From positions 1 through 41,936 of the forward strand of contig CAMBGS010000006.1 of the NCBI GenBank assembly GCA_945866305.1: a stretch of 41,936 nucleotides of DNA, written 5' to 3'. The position numbers and the translations under genes are program-made. The notes under the pieces were generated by a model. It saw only the letters and a program-made list of their open reading frames with translations. It had not been told where the DNA came from and searched no databases. This DNA comes from Bifidobacterium breve (GTDB lineage: Bacteria > Actinomycetota > Actinomycetes > Nanopelagicales > Nanopelagicaceae). Numbering within the stretch: position 1 is the first letter of the stretch; every line of letters starts with the position of its first letter. Below, piece by piece: positions 18,001-26,258 of the stretch.

Positions 18001-18284
18001 GCGTTCTTGCACTGAAAGTGCGTAAGAACTCAGAAGGCTCTGGTCCAATGGGTGAGCGAACTATTGTCGAACTCTTAAATAGCGGCGATGTTGATTTGGT
18101 GATCAATACTCCAGTTGGTAGAGGCACTCGTGCAGATGGCTGGGCGATTCGAACTGCTGCAGTACAACGTTCTATCCCTTGCATAACCACTACTGCCGGT
18201 TTTAGCGCTGCAGTAGAAGGTATTAAAGCGCTGCAACGTGGTGAGCTAAGCGTGTTACCTATACAAGAATGGTTGAAGCGATAA
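15018..18284 (+). CDS. carB: Carbamoyl phosphate synthase large subunit
   Basis: At 1088 residues it is full length. The two homologous ATP-grasp halves each start with a recognisable nucleotide-binding segment ([20 protein letters not shown] and, about 560 residues later, [19 protein letters not shown]). Each half has its [13 protein letters not shown] or [13 protein letters not shown] grasp loop and its [18 protein letters not shown] or [18 protein letters not shown] metal site. The C-terminal region (about the last 140 residues) is the MGS-like allosteric domain, with [10 protein letters not shown]. It overlaps carA and pyrK by one base each (TAATG). Confidence 0.98.
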
Positions 18285-19132
18285 TGTCACAGATAAATCG
18301 CTCAGCGGCACAAATGAACGCGACCGTTCTCGCTAATAAGCGGGTGGGTCAATATCATCAAATCGTTTTTGGAATTGGCGACTTAGTTAAATCTTGTCGT
18401 CCGGGAAACTTCGTTGCCATCAAAGTTGGTGGTGATTCATCACGCATGATTTTACGGAGAGCTTTTGCAATCTCCAGAGTTGCAGAAAGTGTAAGTTTTG
18501 GCGGAACAATGGAATTAATTGTGGCGCCACACGGAACTGGTTCTAAGTGGCTATGCGCGCAGCCAGAAGGCGCTGAAATTGATATCGTCGCACCGCTGGG
18601 CACTGCCTTCGGTATACCGACTGCACCAGTAAAGGCACTTCTTGTGGGTGGTGGGTATGGATCGGCACCACTGTTTGGGTTGGCGGAAGTTCTAAAGTCG
18701 CGTGGTTGCAAAGTAGACATGCTTTTAGGCGCTTCAACAGGTGCAAAAATTTATGCGCCAATGGAGGGCAAGCGCTCGGTAAACTCACTGAAGATATATA
18801 CCGAAGACGGAACCATGGGCGAAACTGGTCGAGTCACGGAACCGATCAAAGCGCTTATCGAAAATCGAGAAGTTGATGTTATTTACTCTTGTGGCCCAAT
18901 GGGAATGTTGAGTGCAATATCTGCGCTAACGGTTGGTACTGATGTTGTCCACCAATGTGCAGTTGAAGAAGCAATGGCGTGTGGCATTGGCATCTGCATG
19001 ACCTGCGTTCTGCCTGTAATGGGAGATGATGGCAAAATCGCAATGTTGCGCTCGTGTATTGATGGCCCAGTTATGGATGGCGCGCAAGTTCAGTGGCAGA
19101 TGGTCGGCCAAGTTCCGGATGGCACACCTTGA
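18284..19132 (+). CDS. pyrK: Dihydroorotate dehydrogenase electron transfer subunit PyrK
   Basis: This protein of about 282 residues has an FAD-binding ferredoxin-reductase-like domain (RRAFAISRV at the flavin site), a nucleotide-binding region (LLVGGGYGSAPLFGLAEVL) and a C-terminal [2Fe-2S] site with cysteines at 233, 238, 241 and 258 (CGIGICMTC and RSCIDGPV). PyrK passes electrons from dihydroorotate, oxidised on PyrD, to NAD+. The start ATG at 18284 overlaps the carB stop (TAATG); an in-frame TTG 15 bases upstream is less likely. It is followed by pyrD with TTGA overlap, so the pair should form the class 1B enzyme. Confidence 0.94.
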   Translation: MSQINRSAAQMNATVLANKRVGQYHQIVFGIGDLVKSCRPGNFVAIKVGGDSSRMILRRAFAISRVAESVSFGGTMELIVAPHGTGSKWLCAQPEGAEIDIVAPLGTAFGIPTAPVKALLVGGGYGSAPLFGLAEVLKSRGCKVDMLLGASTGAKIYAPMEGKRSVNSLKIYTEDGTMGETGRVTEPIKALIENREVDVIYSCGPMGMLSAISALTVGTDVVHQCAVEEAMACGIGICMTCVLPVMGDDGKIAMLRSCIDGPVMDGAQVQWQMVGQVPDGTP

Positions 19133-20067
19133 GCACCTTTGACTTCTCTACCACCTTGGGAAATGCCTTCTTTAATTCGCCAATTTTTACCGCTAGCGGA
19201 TGTGCGAGTTCAGGAAAAGAGTTAGCGCAATTTTTTGACTTACGAGACATTGGCGCAGTCGTTACTAAATCGGTTATGAATAAACCGAGATACGGCAGAC
19301 CAACTCCCCGGATGGCCGAGACTCCTTCCGGGATGCTGAATTCAATTGGTTTACAGGGTCCAGGCATTGATGCTTTCCTGGCTAAGGATGTGCCTTGGCT
19401 AATTGAACAAAAATCTCGTGTAATAGTTTCTATCGCAGGCGAAACTGTCGAAGAGTACGCAACACTCGCGCGAAAAGTTAGATCGGTTTCCGGAATTAGC
19501 GCTCTTGAAGTCAATATTTCTTGCCCAAATGTTGAAAATCGTGGATTGGTATTCGCTTGCGATCCCGATACCTCCCGAAGAGTAATTGATGGTGTACGCC
19601 GAACAATCGGCGGAGAAATTCCAATTATTGCCAAACTCTCACCAGATGTTACAAATTTGCCAGAAATAGCTCGAGGAGTTGTCGATGCTGGCGCAGATGC
19701 GTTGGCTCTCATCAACACTGTTCTTGGAATGGTCATTAATTTAGATTCGATGCGCCCACATCTTGGTGGAAAGACAGGTGGTTTATCGGGTCCAGCGATC
19801 AGACCAGTTGCTGTACGTGCAATTTATCAAGTGCATGCGGTGCTACCAAACGTTCCGATTTTAGGAATGGGTGGAGTTGCCTCAGGCAGAGATGCGCTTG
19901 AGTTGATTCTGGCTGGTGCCTCTGGGGTAAGTGTCGGAACGGCTAGTTTCGGTAATCCATCTGCAGTGATTGAAATCCAGCGTGAGTTGCATAGCCTTTT
20001 GATCGCAAAAGGTTTCCCATCACTAAAATCTGCAGTTGGTTACGCTCATCGTGCGGAGGAGAAATGA
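19129..20067 (+). CDS. pyrD: Dihydroorotate dehydrogenase, class 1B catalytic subunit
   Basis: This 312-residue FMN enzyme oxidises dihydroorotate to orotate. The active-site base is Cys132 in NISCPNVENRG; a cysteine here marks class 1, while quinone-dependent class 2 enzymes have serine. The N-terminus NAFFNSPIFTASGCASSGKEL and the C-terminal PILGMGGVASGRDALELILAGA confirm the family. I placed the start at TTG 19129, overlapping the pyrK stop (TTGA), because the frame upstream, from a GTG at 19093, only adds residues that lie inside pyrK. The length then matches other PyrD class 1B proteins. The stop overlaps pyrF (ATGA). Confidence 0.93.
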   Translation: MSTFDFSTTLGNAFFNSPIFTASGCASSGKELAQFFDLRDIGAVVTKSVMNKPRYGRPTPRMAETPSGMLNSIGLQGPGIDAFLAKDVPWLIEQKSRVIVSIAGETVEEYATLARKVRSVSGISALEVNISCPNVENRGLVFACDPDTSRRVIDGVRRTIGGEIPIIAKLSPDVTNLPEIARGVVDAGADALALINTVLGMVINLDSMRPHLGGKTGGLSGPAIRPVAVRAIYQVHAVLPNVPILGMGGVASGRDALELILAGASGVSVGTASFGNPSAVIEIQRELHSLLIAKGFPSLKSAVGYAHRAEEK

Positions 20068-20774
20068 AAGCACCGATTATTCTCGCAGTAGATACCTCTG
20101 ATTTTGAAACTGCCATCTCTTGGATAAAAGCAACTGAAGATTCGGTAAGCGTCTATAAGTTGGGTTTAGAGTTTTACTTAAACTTTGGTGCCGCGGGTGT
20201 TGCTCAAGTTGTAAAACGCACTGGAGCCGAGATTTTTCTAGATCTAAAGCTACATGACATTCCGCATACCGTCGCAGGTGCTGCAAATGCAATTGCTCAT
20301 CTAAATCCTAAGTTCCTAACTGTGCACGCCAGTGGTGGTCGAGCAATGGTGAATGCCGCTGCGAAAGCAGTTCCCAACGTTGCTGTGACCGCTGTGACTA
20401 TTTTGACTTCACTCTCTGAATCAGATTTGTTCGAAATTGGTTACGCAAATCCTGCGCTCGAAAGTGCGGTAGCCATAGCCAAGATGGCAGTTGAATCTGG
20501 TGCTAAAGCCATAGTTTGTTCTCCTTTGGAGACAGCCGCCATTCGCAGCGCGGTCGGAGGTGAGCCAATAATTATTACTCCTGGTGTTAGGCCACTGGCT
20601 GAACAAGGTGGAGATGATCAGATGCGCACGATGACTCCGGGAGATGCCATTGCTGCGGGAGCCAATTTTGTTGTAATTGGACGTCCGATAACTAAATCCT
20701 GGAGTGAAGGGGCTGCGGCAATGAGCGCCAAGGCACAATCCATTGCTGATGAAATTTTGAGCGCACTTGCGTAG
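20064..20774 (+). CDS. pyrF: Orotidine 5'-phosphate decarboxylase
   Basis: This 236-residue enzyme makes UMP. The signature D60-x-K62-x-x-D65 is visible in LDLKLHDIPHTVAGA, with a second substrate site in ITPGVRPLAEQGGDDQMR near the C-terminus and VIGRPITKS at the phosphate end. It is of the short PyrF type rather than the longer mycobacterial kind. It overlaps pyrD by four bases. Its TAG stop forms the first bases of the -10 box that precedes the mIHF-gmk gene, so the pyr operon probably ends functionally here although I see no terminator. Confidence 0.96.
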   Translation: MKAPIILAVDTSDFETAISWIKATEDSVSVYKLGLEFYLNFGAAGVAQVVKRTGAEIFLDLKLHDIPHTVAGAANAIAHLNPKFLTVHASGGRAMVNAAAKAVPNVAVTAVTILTSLSESDLFEIGYANPALESAVAIAKMAVESGAKAIVCSPLETAAIRSAVGGEPIIITPGVRPLAEQGGDDQMRTMTPGDAIAAGANFVVIGRPITKSWSEGAAAMSAKAQSIADEILSALA

Positions 20775-20783: not shown

Positions 20784-21662
20784 ATGCCGATTCCACCAAA
20801 ACTAACTGCTGAACAACGATCGGCGGCATTGGCTAAATCAACTGCAGCGCGTCAAGTTCGAGCGGCGACAAAATCCCGAGTGAAGAAGGGTGATCTATCA
20901 CTAGCCGCGGTTTTTGAGTTAGCAAAGAGCGATGAAGCAATCGCGAAAATGCGGGTTGTTGAGTTACTTGAATCCTTCTCAGGTGTCGGCAAAGTGCGCG
21001 CAATTGCAACCTTGGATCGTTTGCAAATATCACAAACAAGACGCATACAAGGGTTGGGCGTTGCGCAACGCCAAAATTTGCTTAGAGAGTTTCCAGATCG
21101 GGTATCTGCCAACCTACGGGGGAAGTTGCTAGTTTTATCAGGACCTGGGGGAGTCGGAAAGAGCACGGTTGCAAAAGCACTCCGAGCTACAGATCTATTT
21201 TGGTTAAGTATCTCTGCTACAACGCGCTCGGCTCGACATAATGAAATTGACGGCTCTGATTATTACTTTTATAGCAATGAGGAATTTGATAGCGCAATTA
21301 AATCTGCGTTGTTTCTGGAATGGGCAGAGTTTGCTGGTAATAGGTATGGAACACCTCGCAAACCAGTAGAAGATGCGCTCCGAGAAGGAAAGAATGTTCT
21401 TCTTGAAATTGAGATTGCCGGCGCGAAACAAGTTAAAGAGAGTGCTCCCGAAGCAATATTGGTTTTTCTACAGCCACCGTCTTGGGAAGAATTGGTCTCG
21501 CGCTTAGAAGGTCGAGGTACTGACTCACCCGAAAGACGTGCCGCTCGGCTTGCCTTGGCACAGGAAGAACTTGCGCAAGCAGGATTATTTGATTTTTCAC
21601 TCGTAAATGAGCGAGTAGAAGAGGTCGTTGAACGCCTGATAGGATTAACCAATAATTCCTAG
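20784..21662 (+). CDS. gmk: Fusion of actinobacterial integration host factor (mIHF) and guanylate kinase
   Basis: This 292-residue frame joins two proteins that are separate neighbours in Streptomyces and Mycobacterium. Residues 1-105 resemble mIHF, a nucleoid DNA-binding protein: a basic N-terminal part, then [20 protein letters not shown] and [18 protein letters not shown], the helix-two-turn-helix region. Residues 113-292 are guanylate kinase (GMP to GDP), with P-loop GPGGVGKST (120-128), the GMP site [21 protein letters not shown] split over residues 142-162, and LLEIEIAGA. The frame is continuous with no internal stop or likely second start, so I read it as a true fusion. It is followed by rpoZ. 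Confidence 0.93.
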
Positions 21663-21689: not shown

Positions 21690-21695
21690 AGGAGG
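21690..21695 (+). promoter_or_regulatory. Strong ribosome binding site AGGAGG of rpoZ
   Basis: AGGAGG sits five bases before the ATG at 21701. It is one of the few clear Shine-Dalgarno sequences at an operon-like start in the window. Confidence 0.8.
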
Positions 21696-21700
21696 TCCAA

Positions 21701-21949
21701 ATGGACGGAATCACTAACCCACCAATCGATGAACTTCTCGATAAGAGCGGATCTAAATACAGCTTGGTGCTCTATGCGGCAAAGCGTGCACGTCAGATAA
21801 ATGCTTACTACTCACAACTTGGTGAAGGCTTGCTTGAATATGTTGGCCCGCTAGTTGAAACTCACGTACACGAGAAGCCTTTGTCAATTGCACTTCGTGA
21901 GATCAACGAAGGCCTTTTGACGATCGAAAATCTCGAACCAACAGCGTAA
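21701..21949 (+). CDS. rpoZ: RNA polymerase omega subunit
   Basis: This 82-residue protein matches omega, which helps assemble and stabilise the beta' subunit. The conserved region is [28 protein letters not shown], followed by the helical [15 protein letters not shown]. Its position between gmk and coaBC is conserved in Actinobacteria and beyond. A strong Shine-Dalgarno sequence precedes it. The 24-base gap to coaBC shows no promoter or terminator, so the two are probably cotranscribed. Confidence 0.95.
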
Positions 21950-24380: not shown

Positions 24381-26258
24381 GTGTCTACTGCGCGGCCGCT
24401 TCGCCTCAAGACCGAAACGGCAAAACGTGTTGAGAAGATTGCGGCAGATTCTGCCCCGATAGCAAAAGTTTGGGTAGACAATAACGTTGCACATTTAGCT
24501 GGAATCTTTGATTATTTGGTACCAGCGCGCTTTGATGCGCAGGTGCGAGTCGGTGTGCGCGTAAGCGTAGATTTTGCGGGACGAGAATGCGAAGCTCTGG
24601 TTGTTGAGCGAAGCGACGAGGGATCCCTGTCAGGTCTGAAGTTTATTTCGAAGGTACTCTCTCCAACAGTTGTCGCTTCATCTGGTCTAATTGACTTGAT
24701 CACCGAGGGATGTGCGCGCTGGTTGGCTCACCCTTATGATTTTCTACGTAGCGCCATTCCGCCAAGGGTTTCTGGTGTAGATAAAAACCATCACGAGTTG
24801 TCGCAAGAGCCGAAAGGTATAGGAACCGCAAAAGGCAGCAAGACTTTCATTCATCTACAGCCACACGAGGATGCAATAGCCAAGCTCGCAGAGTTTGCTC
24901 TACTAAAGGCAGCAACTGGCTCGGTTCTTATCATTACTCCCGAAGAGCGAGAATTACAGCTACTGGCCGATGCACTGGGGGAGAAGGCGTGCGTCTTATC
25001 CGCAACGCTTACGCGTACCGTGAGATATCAAAACTATTTAAGGTCGATTAGCGAGACGAATCTAATAACAATTGGAACCAGGAGCGCGATATTTTCTTAC
25101 CCTCCCGATCTTCAGACAATTGTTATCTTTCGCGAAGGTTCGGAATCTCATTATGAACCTAGGACGCCGGGGTGGAATACAAGAGATCTAGCTTTGATGC
25201 GTGCTGAACGAGATGGCTGCGATCTATTCTTCGTTGGCTATTCACCGTCTTTGGAGATTGGACTATTAATTGATAATGCAAAGGTTAAGTTTCTATCTAA
25301 GAATAATCGTTTACGAGTCATTAACTTTGAATCGTTAAATGGCGAACTACTCCCGAATCGAATTTTTCCTCCAATCCGTAAAGCGCTCAAAACTGGTCCA
25401 GTCCTCTTCTTGATTCCCCGAAAAGGGTATGCCAGCTCACTGATGTGTAAAAAATGTCGAAATATTGCCACTTGCGAATGCGGTGGAAAGCTATCCCGCA
25501 ACAAAGCAAATGCAGCTCTGAATTGCGCACTCTGCGGAAAGTCTCAACCAACATCGAAGTGCCGTTGGTGCGATAGTGATTCATTCTTGATGTTGGGGCG
25601 AGGCGGTGAGCGGCACACTGAGGAGATTGGTCGCGCTTTTCCAAACGTTGCGACTTTCTACTCAACTGCTGATTCCCAAATTATAGATCTACCCAATTCA
25701 CCCGCTCTGGTAATCGCAACTGCTGGAATGGAACCACGGATTGCTGGCGGCTATTCAGCGGTCATTCTTTTAGAAGGTGATTCATTCTTCTCTTACTCAG
25801 ATTTGAGAGCACAAGAACGCGCACGTGAAACATTCTTTGTGTCAGCTGCCGCGGTGAGCGAGGTTGGTGATGTAATTACTGTGGTTAATTCTTCAAACCC
25901 GATTACTTCTGCGCTTACTCAATGGAATCCAAAAGTGTTGGTAAGTCGCGAACTTTCTGAGCGAAGCGAGTTGAATTTCCCGCCATTTTCTAGATCTATT
26001 GTTATGGAGGTAGAGAGTGCGGAGGCAACATCCATCGTCGCTGGTTTTAAAAAATCACTTTTAGATAAGCGGCTGCCTGAGAGCACCAGAGTTTTAGGAC
26101 CCGCTCAAGGAAGTGGGAATATCTCCCGAATATTAATGACTGCTAATTTGTCAGATAGCGATCAGTTTCTCAAATTTATCGGAGACTATATTCGCCATCG
26201 TGCGGTGACTAAGAAGAAGAGCGTTCGGTTGCGAGTAGACCCCTACTCTCTTACATAG
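24381..26258 (+). CDS. priA: Probable primosomal protein PriA, helicase-deficient form
   Basis: This 625-residue protein matches actinobacterial PriA. The N-terminal DNA-binding part shows VWVDNNVAHLAGIFDYLVP and ARFDAQVRVGVRVSVDFAG. The central zinc region has cysteine pairs beginning at C356 (MCKKC, CECGG, CALCGK, CRWCDS), and the C-terminal region shows RERARETF-like and PPFSRSIVMEV segments. The helicase core is degenerate: there is no GxTGSGKT Walker A (the site reads LLKAATGSVLII) and no DEEH box (reads IVIFREGSESHYE). Family annotation already states that actinobacterial versions probably lack helicase activity, so a structural role in replication restart is likely. Confidence 0.88.
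   Translation: MSTARPLRLKTETAKRVEKIAADSAPIAKVWVDNNVAHLAGIFDYLVPARFDAQVRVGVRVSVDFAGRECEALVVERSDEGSLSGLKFISKVLSPTVVASSGLIDLITEGCARWLAHPYDFLRSAIPPRVSGVDKNHHELSQEPKGIGTAKGSKTFIHLQPHEDAIAKLAEFALLKAATGSVLIITPEERELQLLADALGEKACVLSATLTRTVRYQNYLRSISETNLITIGTRSAIFSYPPDLQTIVIFREGSESHYEPRTPGWNTRDLALMRAERDGCDLFFVGYSPSLEIGLLIDNAKVKFLSKNNRLRVINFESLNGELLPNRIFPPIRKALKTGPVLFLIPRKGYASSLMCKKCRNIATCECGGKLSRNKANAALNCALCGKSQPTSKCRWCDSDSFLMLGRGGERHTEEIGRAFPNVATFYSTADSQIIDLPNSPALVIATAGMEPRIAGGYSAVILLEGDSFFSYSDLRAQERARETFFVSAAAVSEVGDVITVVNSSNPITSALTQWNPKVLVSRELSERSELNFPPFSRSIVMEVESAEATSIVAGFKKSLLDKRLPESTRVLGPAQGSGNISRILMTANLSDSDQFLKFIGDYIRHRAVTKKKSVRLRVDPYSLT

Follow-up and report, generated by a model that had tools for sequence, protein, structure and literature searches.

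In the stretch of DNA analysed here (hereafter designated the window; 41,936 nucleotides), we found that the nucleoid protein mIHF and guanylate kinase (Gmk) lie in one gene, and the best explanation of the whole, held at a probability of about 0.75, is a genuine bifunctional mIHF-Gmk protein of two flexibly linked halves that came about by the joining of two coupled genes. Seen here are a single frame, complete domains with their key residues, purifying selection, recurrence of the fusion in three or more lineages, and, for the gene of the window, the lack of an obvious internal start.

The first-pass annotation had described an mIHF domain (residues 1-105) and a complete guanylate kinase (residues 113-292) in one uninterrupted frame of 292 residues, and both the architecture and the domain limits were borne out by profile matches at residues 5-103 and 113-287, with both curated family cut-offs exceeded in one ORF. 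Thus, the NCBIfam model actino_IHF (NF041260) matched the fusion protein with 115.2 bits against a cut-off of 60, covering model positions 3-101 of 102, and guanyl_kin (TIGR03263, also NCBIfam) matched residues 113-287 with 211.3 bits against a cut-off of 160.45, scores that are far beyond chance, while Pfam placed H2TH_5 at residues 33-103 and Guanylate_kin at residues 113-285. The complete IHF domain is separated from the complete guanylate kinase by about nine residues within the frame. NF041260 is typed by NCBI as equivalog_domain, that is, as a domain-level model; the small stand-alone protein that is the customary, not the defining, form of mIHF is not found here, where mIHF shares its frame with Gmk. 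An assembly error or a missed frameshift was ruled out, the same frame being found in dozens of genomes, including the closed genomes CP015604 and NZ_CP016769.

Table 1 Features of the mIHF-Gmk gene and its immediate neighbours, in coordinates of the window.
Feature	Position	Strand	Remarks
pyrF	20064..20774	+	Next gene upstream, with 9 bases between its end and the fusion; NF001273 / TIGR01740
mIHF-Gmk fusion gene	20784..21662	+	292 codons plus stop, ATG to TAG, single frame
mIHF domain, residues 5-103	20796..21092	+	NF041260, 115 bits; PF22525, 85 bits
H2TH_5 core, residues 33-103	20880-21092	+	Pfam
Linker, residues 104-112	21093..21119	+	Low model confidence, fast-changing, no in-frame start with Shine-Dalgarno
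Guanylate kinase domain, residues 113-287	21120..21644	+	TIGR03263, 211 bits
In-frame TTG, residue 115	21126..21128	+	Sole possible start codon right at the kinase boundary; no recognisable Shine-Dalgarno
Kinase P-loop GPGGVGKST, residues 120-128	21141..21167	+	From the translation; kept in fused and split Gmk
rpoZ (RNA polymerase omega)	21701..21949	+	Downstream neighbour; TIGR00690; own AGGAGG at 21690-21695

Both halves look functional from their residues and from the predicted structure. In the mIHF half, R12, R23, R26, K30, G69, R86, R87, G90, G92, and Q95 are conserved, and those invariant in stand-alone mIHF (R23, R26, K30, G69, R86, R87, G90, and G92) are identical in 62-64 of 64 fused relatives. 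In the Gmk half, the residues tested, that is, those of the P-loop and the GMP site and the lid arginines, are as in the stand-alone enzymes (G120, G125, K126, S144, T146, T147, R148, R151, E154, Y160, E179, Y188, G189, T190, R240, R244, and R255). Across the 64 fused relatives, the residues invariant in stand-alone Gmk and mIHF are kept with rare exceptions. Wherever dS could be measured between two genes, dN/dS lay well under 0.1 in each domain, a rough figure given that dS is near saturation, and both halves are, as judged from these ratios, under strong purifying selection. An AlphaFold2 model of the fusion consists of two well-folded domains (mean pLDDT, 87.8), of which the mIHF half has the long N-terminal helix and the helix-two-turn-helix fold of DNA-bound sIHF (PDB 6bek; Z 16.2, rmsd 0.8 A over 89 residues, 47% identity). 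The solved structures closest in fold to the Gmk half are those of M. tuberculosis Gmk (1s4q/1znw), with Z 26.2 for 1s4q. Since the mIHF half has retained its conserved basic residues, tethering of the enzyme to DNA would be plausible.

The source genome, that of a freshwater actinobacterium, is represented by an assembly of 1.26 Mb that is 83% complete, in which a profile search gave no second mIHF, there was no second match to the fusion protein, and no other guanylate kinase was found. The shared copy number of mIHF and Gmk that the first-pass annotation had proposed is predicted from the sequence, because there is neither a second mIHF nor a recognisable internal start in the gene of the window. 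The genes around the fusion are ordered carB, pyrK-like, pyrD, pyrF, fusion, rpoZ, coaBC, metK, and priA-like, and a scan for promoters and terminators at the fusion junction gave sites no more numerous than chance. The pyrK-like and pyrD frames as listed (window 18269-20067) overlap by 40 bases, and the true pyrD start may lie further in; the priA-like gene (window 24381-26258) matches actinobacterial PRK14873 models with scores well under their cut-offs. Genomes of the source genus have one or two HU-type proteins each and no Lsr2, so that the fused mIHF would have few other nucleoid proteins beside it in the genus.

The first-pass annotation had surmised that longer Gmk proteins exist in related Actinobacteria, and such proteins proved to be the rule in Nanopelagicales and in family f31. 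In Nanopelagicales, the fusion was found in 90 of 101 sampled genomes (two of them cut by contig ends), covering genera g1, g2, g3, g4, g6, g108, g109, and g111, and two adjacent genes were found in the other 11, covering g5, g106, g107, and g110. The closest named relatives, IMCC26103 and Candidatus Planktophila lacus, have closed genomes, both with the fusion, and in the fused genomes of the order the search gave no second mIHF beyond fragments of that one gene at contig ends. Among 297 genomes sampled across the class, the fusion was also present in all 13 genomes of f31 and in both genomes of genus g78 of family f29. Outside this class, about 136 genomes sampled from the rest of the phylum showed no fusion with Gmk when the size of the open frame that contains mIHF was taken as the measure. 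Mycobacterium- and Streptomyces-type genomes have mIHF and gmk as separate neighbours, as had also been stated. An apparent fusion in Actinomycetaceae (Schaalia and Actinomyces; L015-L019), suggested by joined tblastn segments, was rejected, the genes being split once the frames were read, and both G305 and G243, where the match had been flagged as holding stops, carry intact fusions.

Two side observations concern mIHF more broadly. First, mIHF is absent at the gmk locus of families f43 and f5 and of genera g48 and g89 (f29), g67 (f28), and g128 and g142 (f42), and those of these genomes that were searched by profile have none elsewhere; this protein, essential in M. tuberculosis, is, by its pattern of presence, one that has been lost several times. 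Second, in a genome of another family of the phylum, outside the class of the source organism, an mIHF-like H2TH_5 domain stands at the C-terminus of a long frame (L206; G500:C12:1088000-1091500, minus strand), the N-terminal part of which scores 41.9 bits against PF09983, the C-terminal domain of the Wadjet protein JetD, and a basic stretch of low complexity separates the two; this is another kind of mIHF fusion, possibly one related to defence.

A search for other mIHF-Gmk fusions and their mapping on a tree, as proposed in the first-pass annotation, placed the fusions of f31 and f29-g78 apart from that of Nanopelagicales in origin. With both domains concatenated, the trees require 5 switches between fused and split, and the Gmk-only tree requires 4. 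In an AU test of tree constraints (47 rows), holding together the fusions of Nanopelagicales and f31 (p 5e-14) and of Nanopelagicales and f29-g78 (p 0.003) was rejected, as was, in a separate test, holding together those of f31 and f29-g78 (p 0.02); one common origin of all fusions was rejected accordingly. The joining of mIHF to Gmk is, on these trees, an event that occurred at least three separate times, in Nanopelagicales, f31, and f29-g78. A single origin within Nanopelagicales was not rejected (p 0.16), though the tree prefers more; the split state of g106 and g110 may represent fission, or the other genera may represent extra fusions.

The split genes of sister lineages bear on how the join was made. 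An overlap of stop and start such as ATGA is a usual sign of translational coupling. In the split genera g106 and g110 and in g72 and g64 of f29, the mihF stop and the gmk start share an ATGA overlap or TGATG, gmk lying in another frame, and in the split g5 and g107, mihF and gmk abut or stand shortly apart. Since the split genes of sister lineages overlap at ATGA, the fusion appears to have followed translational coupling as a further step. Presumably, the ancestral neighbourhood was mihF-gmk-rpoZ, its first two genes being probably already coupled through the ATGA overlap, and an indel restoring the frame, together with loss of the mihF stop, would have given the fused gene. The product would be expressed as one uncleaved chain, with an N-terminal mIHF domain that would still bind DNA, placed by a short flexible linker before a guanylate kinase of presumably normal catalytic activity. 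With no other mIHF seen in the genome, all of the mIHF would be made 1:1 with Gmk, and part of the kinase would consequently be carried, in all probability, on the nucleoid.

Such a join would lock a metabolic enzyme and a DNA protein that is often very abundant into a constant ratio: in lineages that tie mIHF 1:1 to a house-keeping enzyme, either the cell can do without a high excess of mIHF or it makes far more of the enzyme than it needs. With three independent origins of the fusion, the order mihF-gmk-rpoZ does not look accidental, and the presence of fused and split versions side by side in one family makes the effect testable by swapping the architectures.

Whether the join matters is the only point on which the bifunctional protein preferred here differs from a compatible account, in which coupled genes ran together during compaction and the join, a neutral by-product, has no function of its own. 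We place the latter slightly below even odds. Few mutations would be needed, since sister genes overlap at ATGA; the genomes of Nanopelagicales are small (about 1.2-2 Mb); both domains have ordinary residues and the joint is flexible; and some lineages of the same family stay split, or became split again. This account remains as good for Nanopelagicales itself, but is strained by independent fixation of the fusion in f31, whose genomes of 2.8-4.3 Mb are not streamlined. Moreover, the fusion is kept in every sampled genome of f31 and in nearly all of Nanopelagicales, and a protein that ranks among the ten most abundant in M. tuberculosis (PMC6155035) is unlikely to be tied to an enzyme without consequence.

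As for the bifunctional protein itself, its two activities most likely work separately, with no allosteric coupling between them. Coupling, in which DNA binding would alter kinase activity or the binding of GMP, GDP, or (p)ppGpp by the kinase would alter DNA binding, agrees with the convergent origin of the fusion and with its position in a nucleotide and transcription block (pyrD-pyrF-fusion-rpoZ), but we regard it as improbable. The joint (residues 101-110) was modelled with low confidence (pLDDT about 64; pTM of the whole, 0.62), the linker between the profile ends is variable, being 10 residues in 53 of 83 fused loci with a range of 7-23, and nothing points to a conserved interface. A tight mechanical link between the domains is hard to reconcile with such a joint and with a linker of varying length. 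Similarly long odds attach to the idea that the repeated fusion is adaptive, in that a fixed 1:1 ratio or GDP synthesis on the nucleoid would make compaction respond to guanine nucleotide supply; if true, a nucleotide kinase would set or read out the DNA binding of the nucleoid protein with which it shares a chain.

One frame could also give two products if ribosomes started near the junction as well, yielding free Gmk and releasing the enzyme from mIHF levels, which seems unlikely as a general account. At the junction of the window's gene, no start codon with a Shine-Dalgarno was found, only TTG codons without one lying nearby; an internal start producing Gmk alone, which had been named in advance as evidence against a single product, is therefore not recognisable there by this sign. 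The fusion's own start has no Shine-Dalgarno either, and because Planktophila genes often lack one, weak internal initiation may still occur at the junction despite its absence, for example at the TTG at 21126. Elsewhere the signal varies with the genus. Of 7 fused genes from g3 and the neighbouring g111, 5 have an AGGAG at the junction that is followed 6-9 bases later by an in-frame TTG or ATG, against 0.67 expected under synonymous shuffling (P 3.5e-5, a value that overstates independence since the genes are related), and in g1 and g2 taken together, starts with AGGAG were found at 4 of 34 junctions against 0.72 expected (P 0.004, synonymous shuffling). With g3, g4, g6, and g108 pooled, such starts occur at 10 of 20 junctions, compared with 3% of background windows; those of g4 and g6 were not above the shuffled expectation, although methionine is usual at the junction start position in g4. 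None of nine f31 genes had a junction start with a Shine-Dalgarno. In five g3 loci (L047, L048, L109, L110, and L111), the conserved in-frame start codon with AGGAG is a candidate for the start of a nested gmk. Genus g3, and perhaps g4, seems to have retained an internal start, and some fused frames may still yield free Gmk, so that a fused gene need not imply one product in every lineage.

The divergence of the two halves differs among lineages. Identity to the stand-alone consensus was 0.48 for mIHF and 0.54 for Gmk in the window's lineage, compared with 0.54 for both in stand-alone relatives of the same family, and was 0.34 and 0.71 in f31 and 0.30 and 0.58 in f29-g78, respectively. In the f31 loci L120-L128, the mIHF half is far more diverged from this consensus than Gmk, which suggests relaxed or changed constraint on it around the fusion. 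Because mIHF, and not Gmk, is strongly diverged in f31 and f29-g78, what becomes of the DNA-binding half may not be the same in every lineage. That mIHF is being given up as a nucleoid protein after fusion, persisting as an accessory or leader domain of Gmk, would fit this divergence and the several other lineages without mIHF at the gmk locus or without any, but is the least probable of the alternatives, since mIHF in the window's lineage is only slightly more diverged than Gmk and keeps all core basic residues.

Although both domains are known and any scan of these genomes would reveal the fusion, no published description of an mIHF-Gmk fusion was found in the literature searched. Compared with known systems, the fusion resembles mIHF (Rv1388) and gmk (Rv1389) of M. 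tuberculosis in its proteins, their order, and the adjoining rpoZ, but there the two are separate proteins, and the amount of mIHF need not follow that of Gmk. In that organism, mIHF is essential and is reported to rank in the top ten proteins by abundance, the gene order is mihF-gmk-rpoZ, and mihF deletion is polar on gmk and rpoZ (PMC6155035). The N-terminal half has the fold and sequence of sIHF (SCO1480) of Streptomyces coelicolor (PDB 4itq and 6bek), which in contrast is a stand-alone protein of about 107 residues. The complete C-terminal half, with its P-loop and GMP-site residues, matches stand-alone bacterial guanylate kinase (TIGR03263; PDB 1s4q and 2an9), which normally has about 190-210 residues and lacks a DNA-binding domain. 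The adjacent mihF-gmk pairs of Nanopelagicales, overlapping in g106 and g110 and also present in g5 and g107, belong to the same organism family and occupy the same place as the fusion, but their proteins are parted by a stop and a change of frame. MAGUK proteins (PSD-95 and CASK) are likewise multidomain proteins with a guanylate-kinase-like domain, which in them serves as a protein-binding module, whereas the kinase of the fusion keeps all residues conserved in active enzymes.
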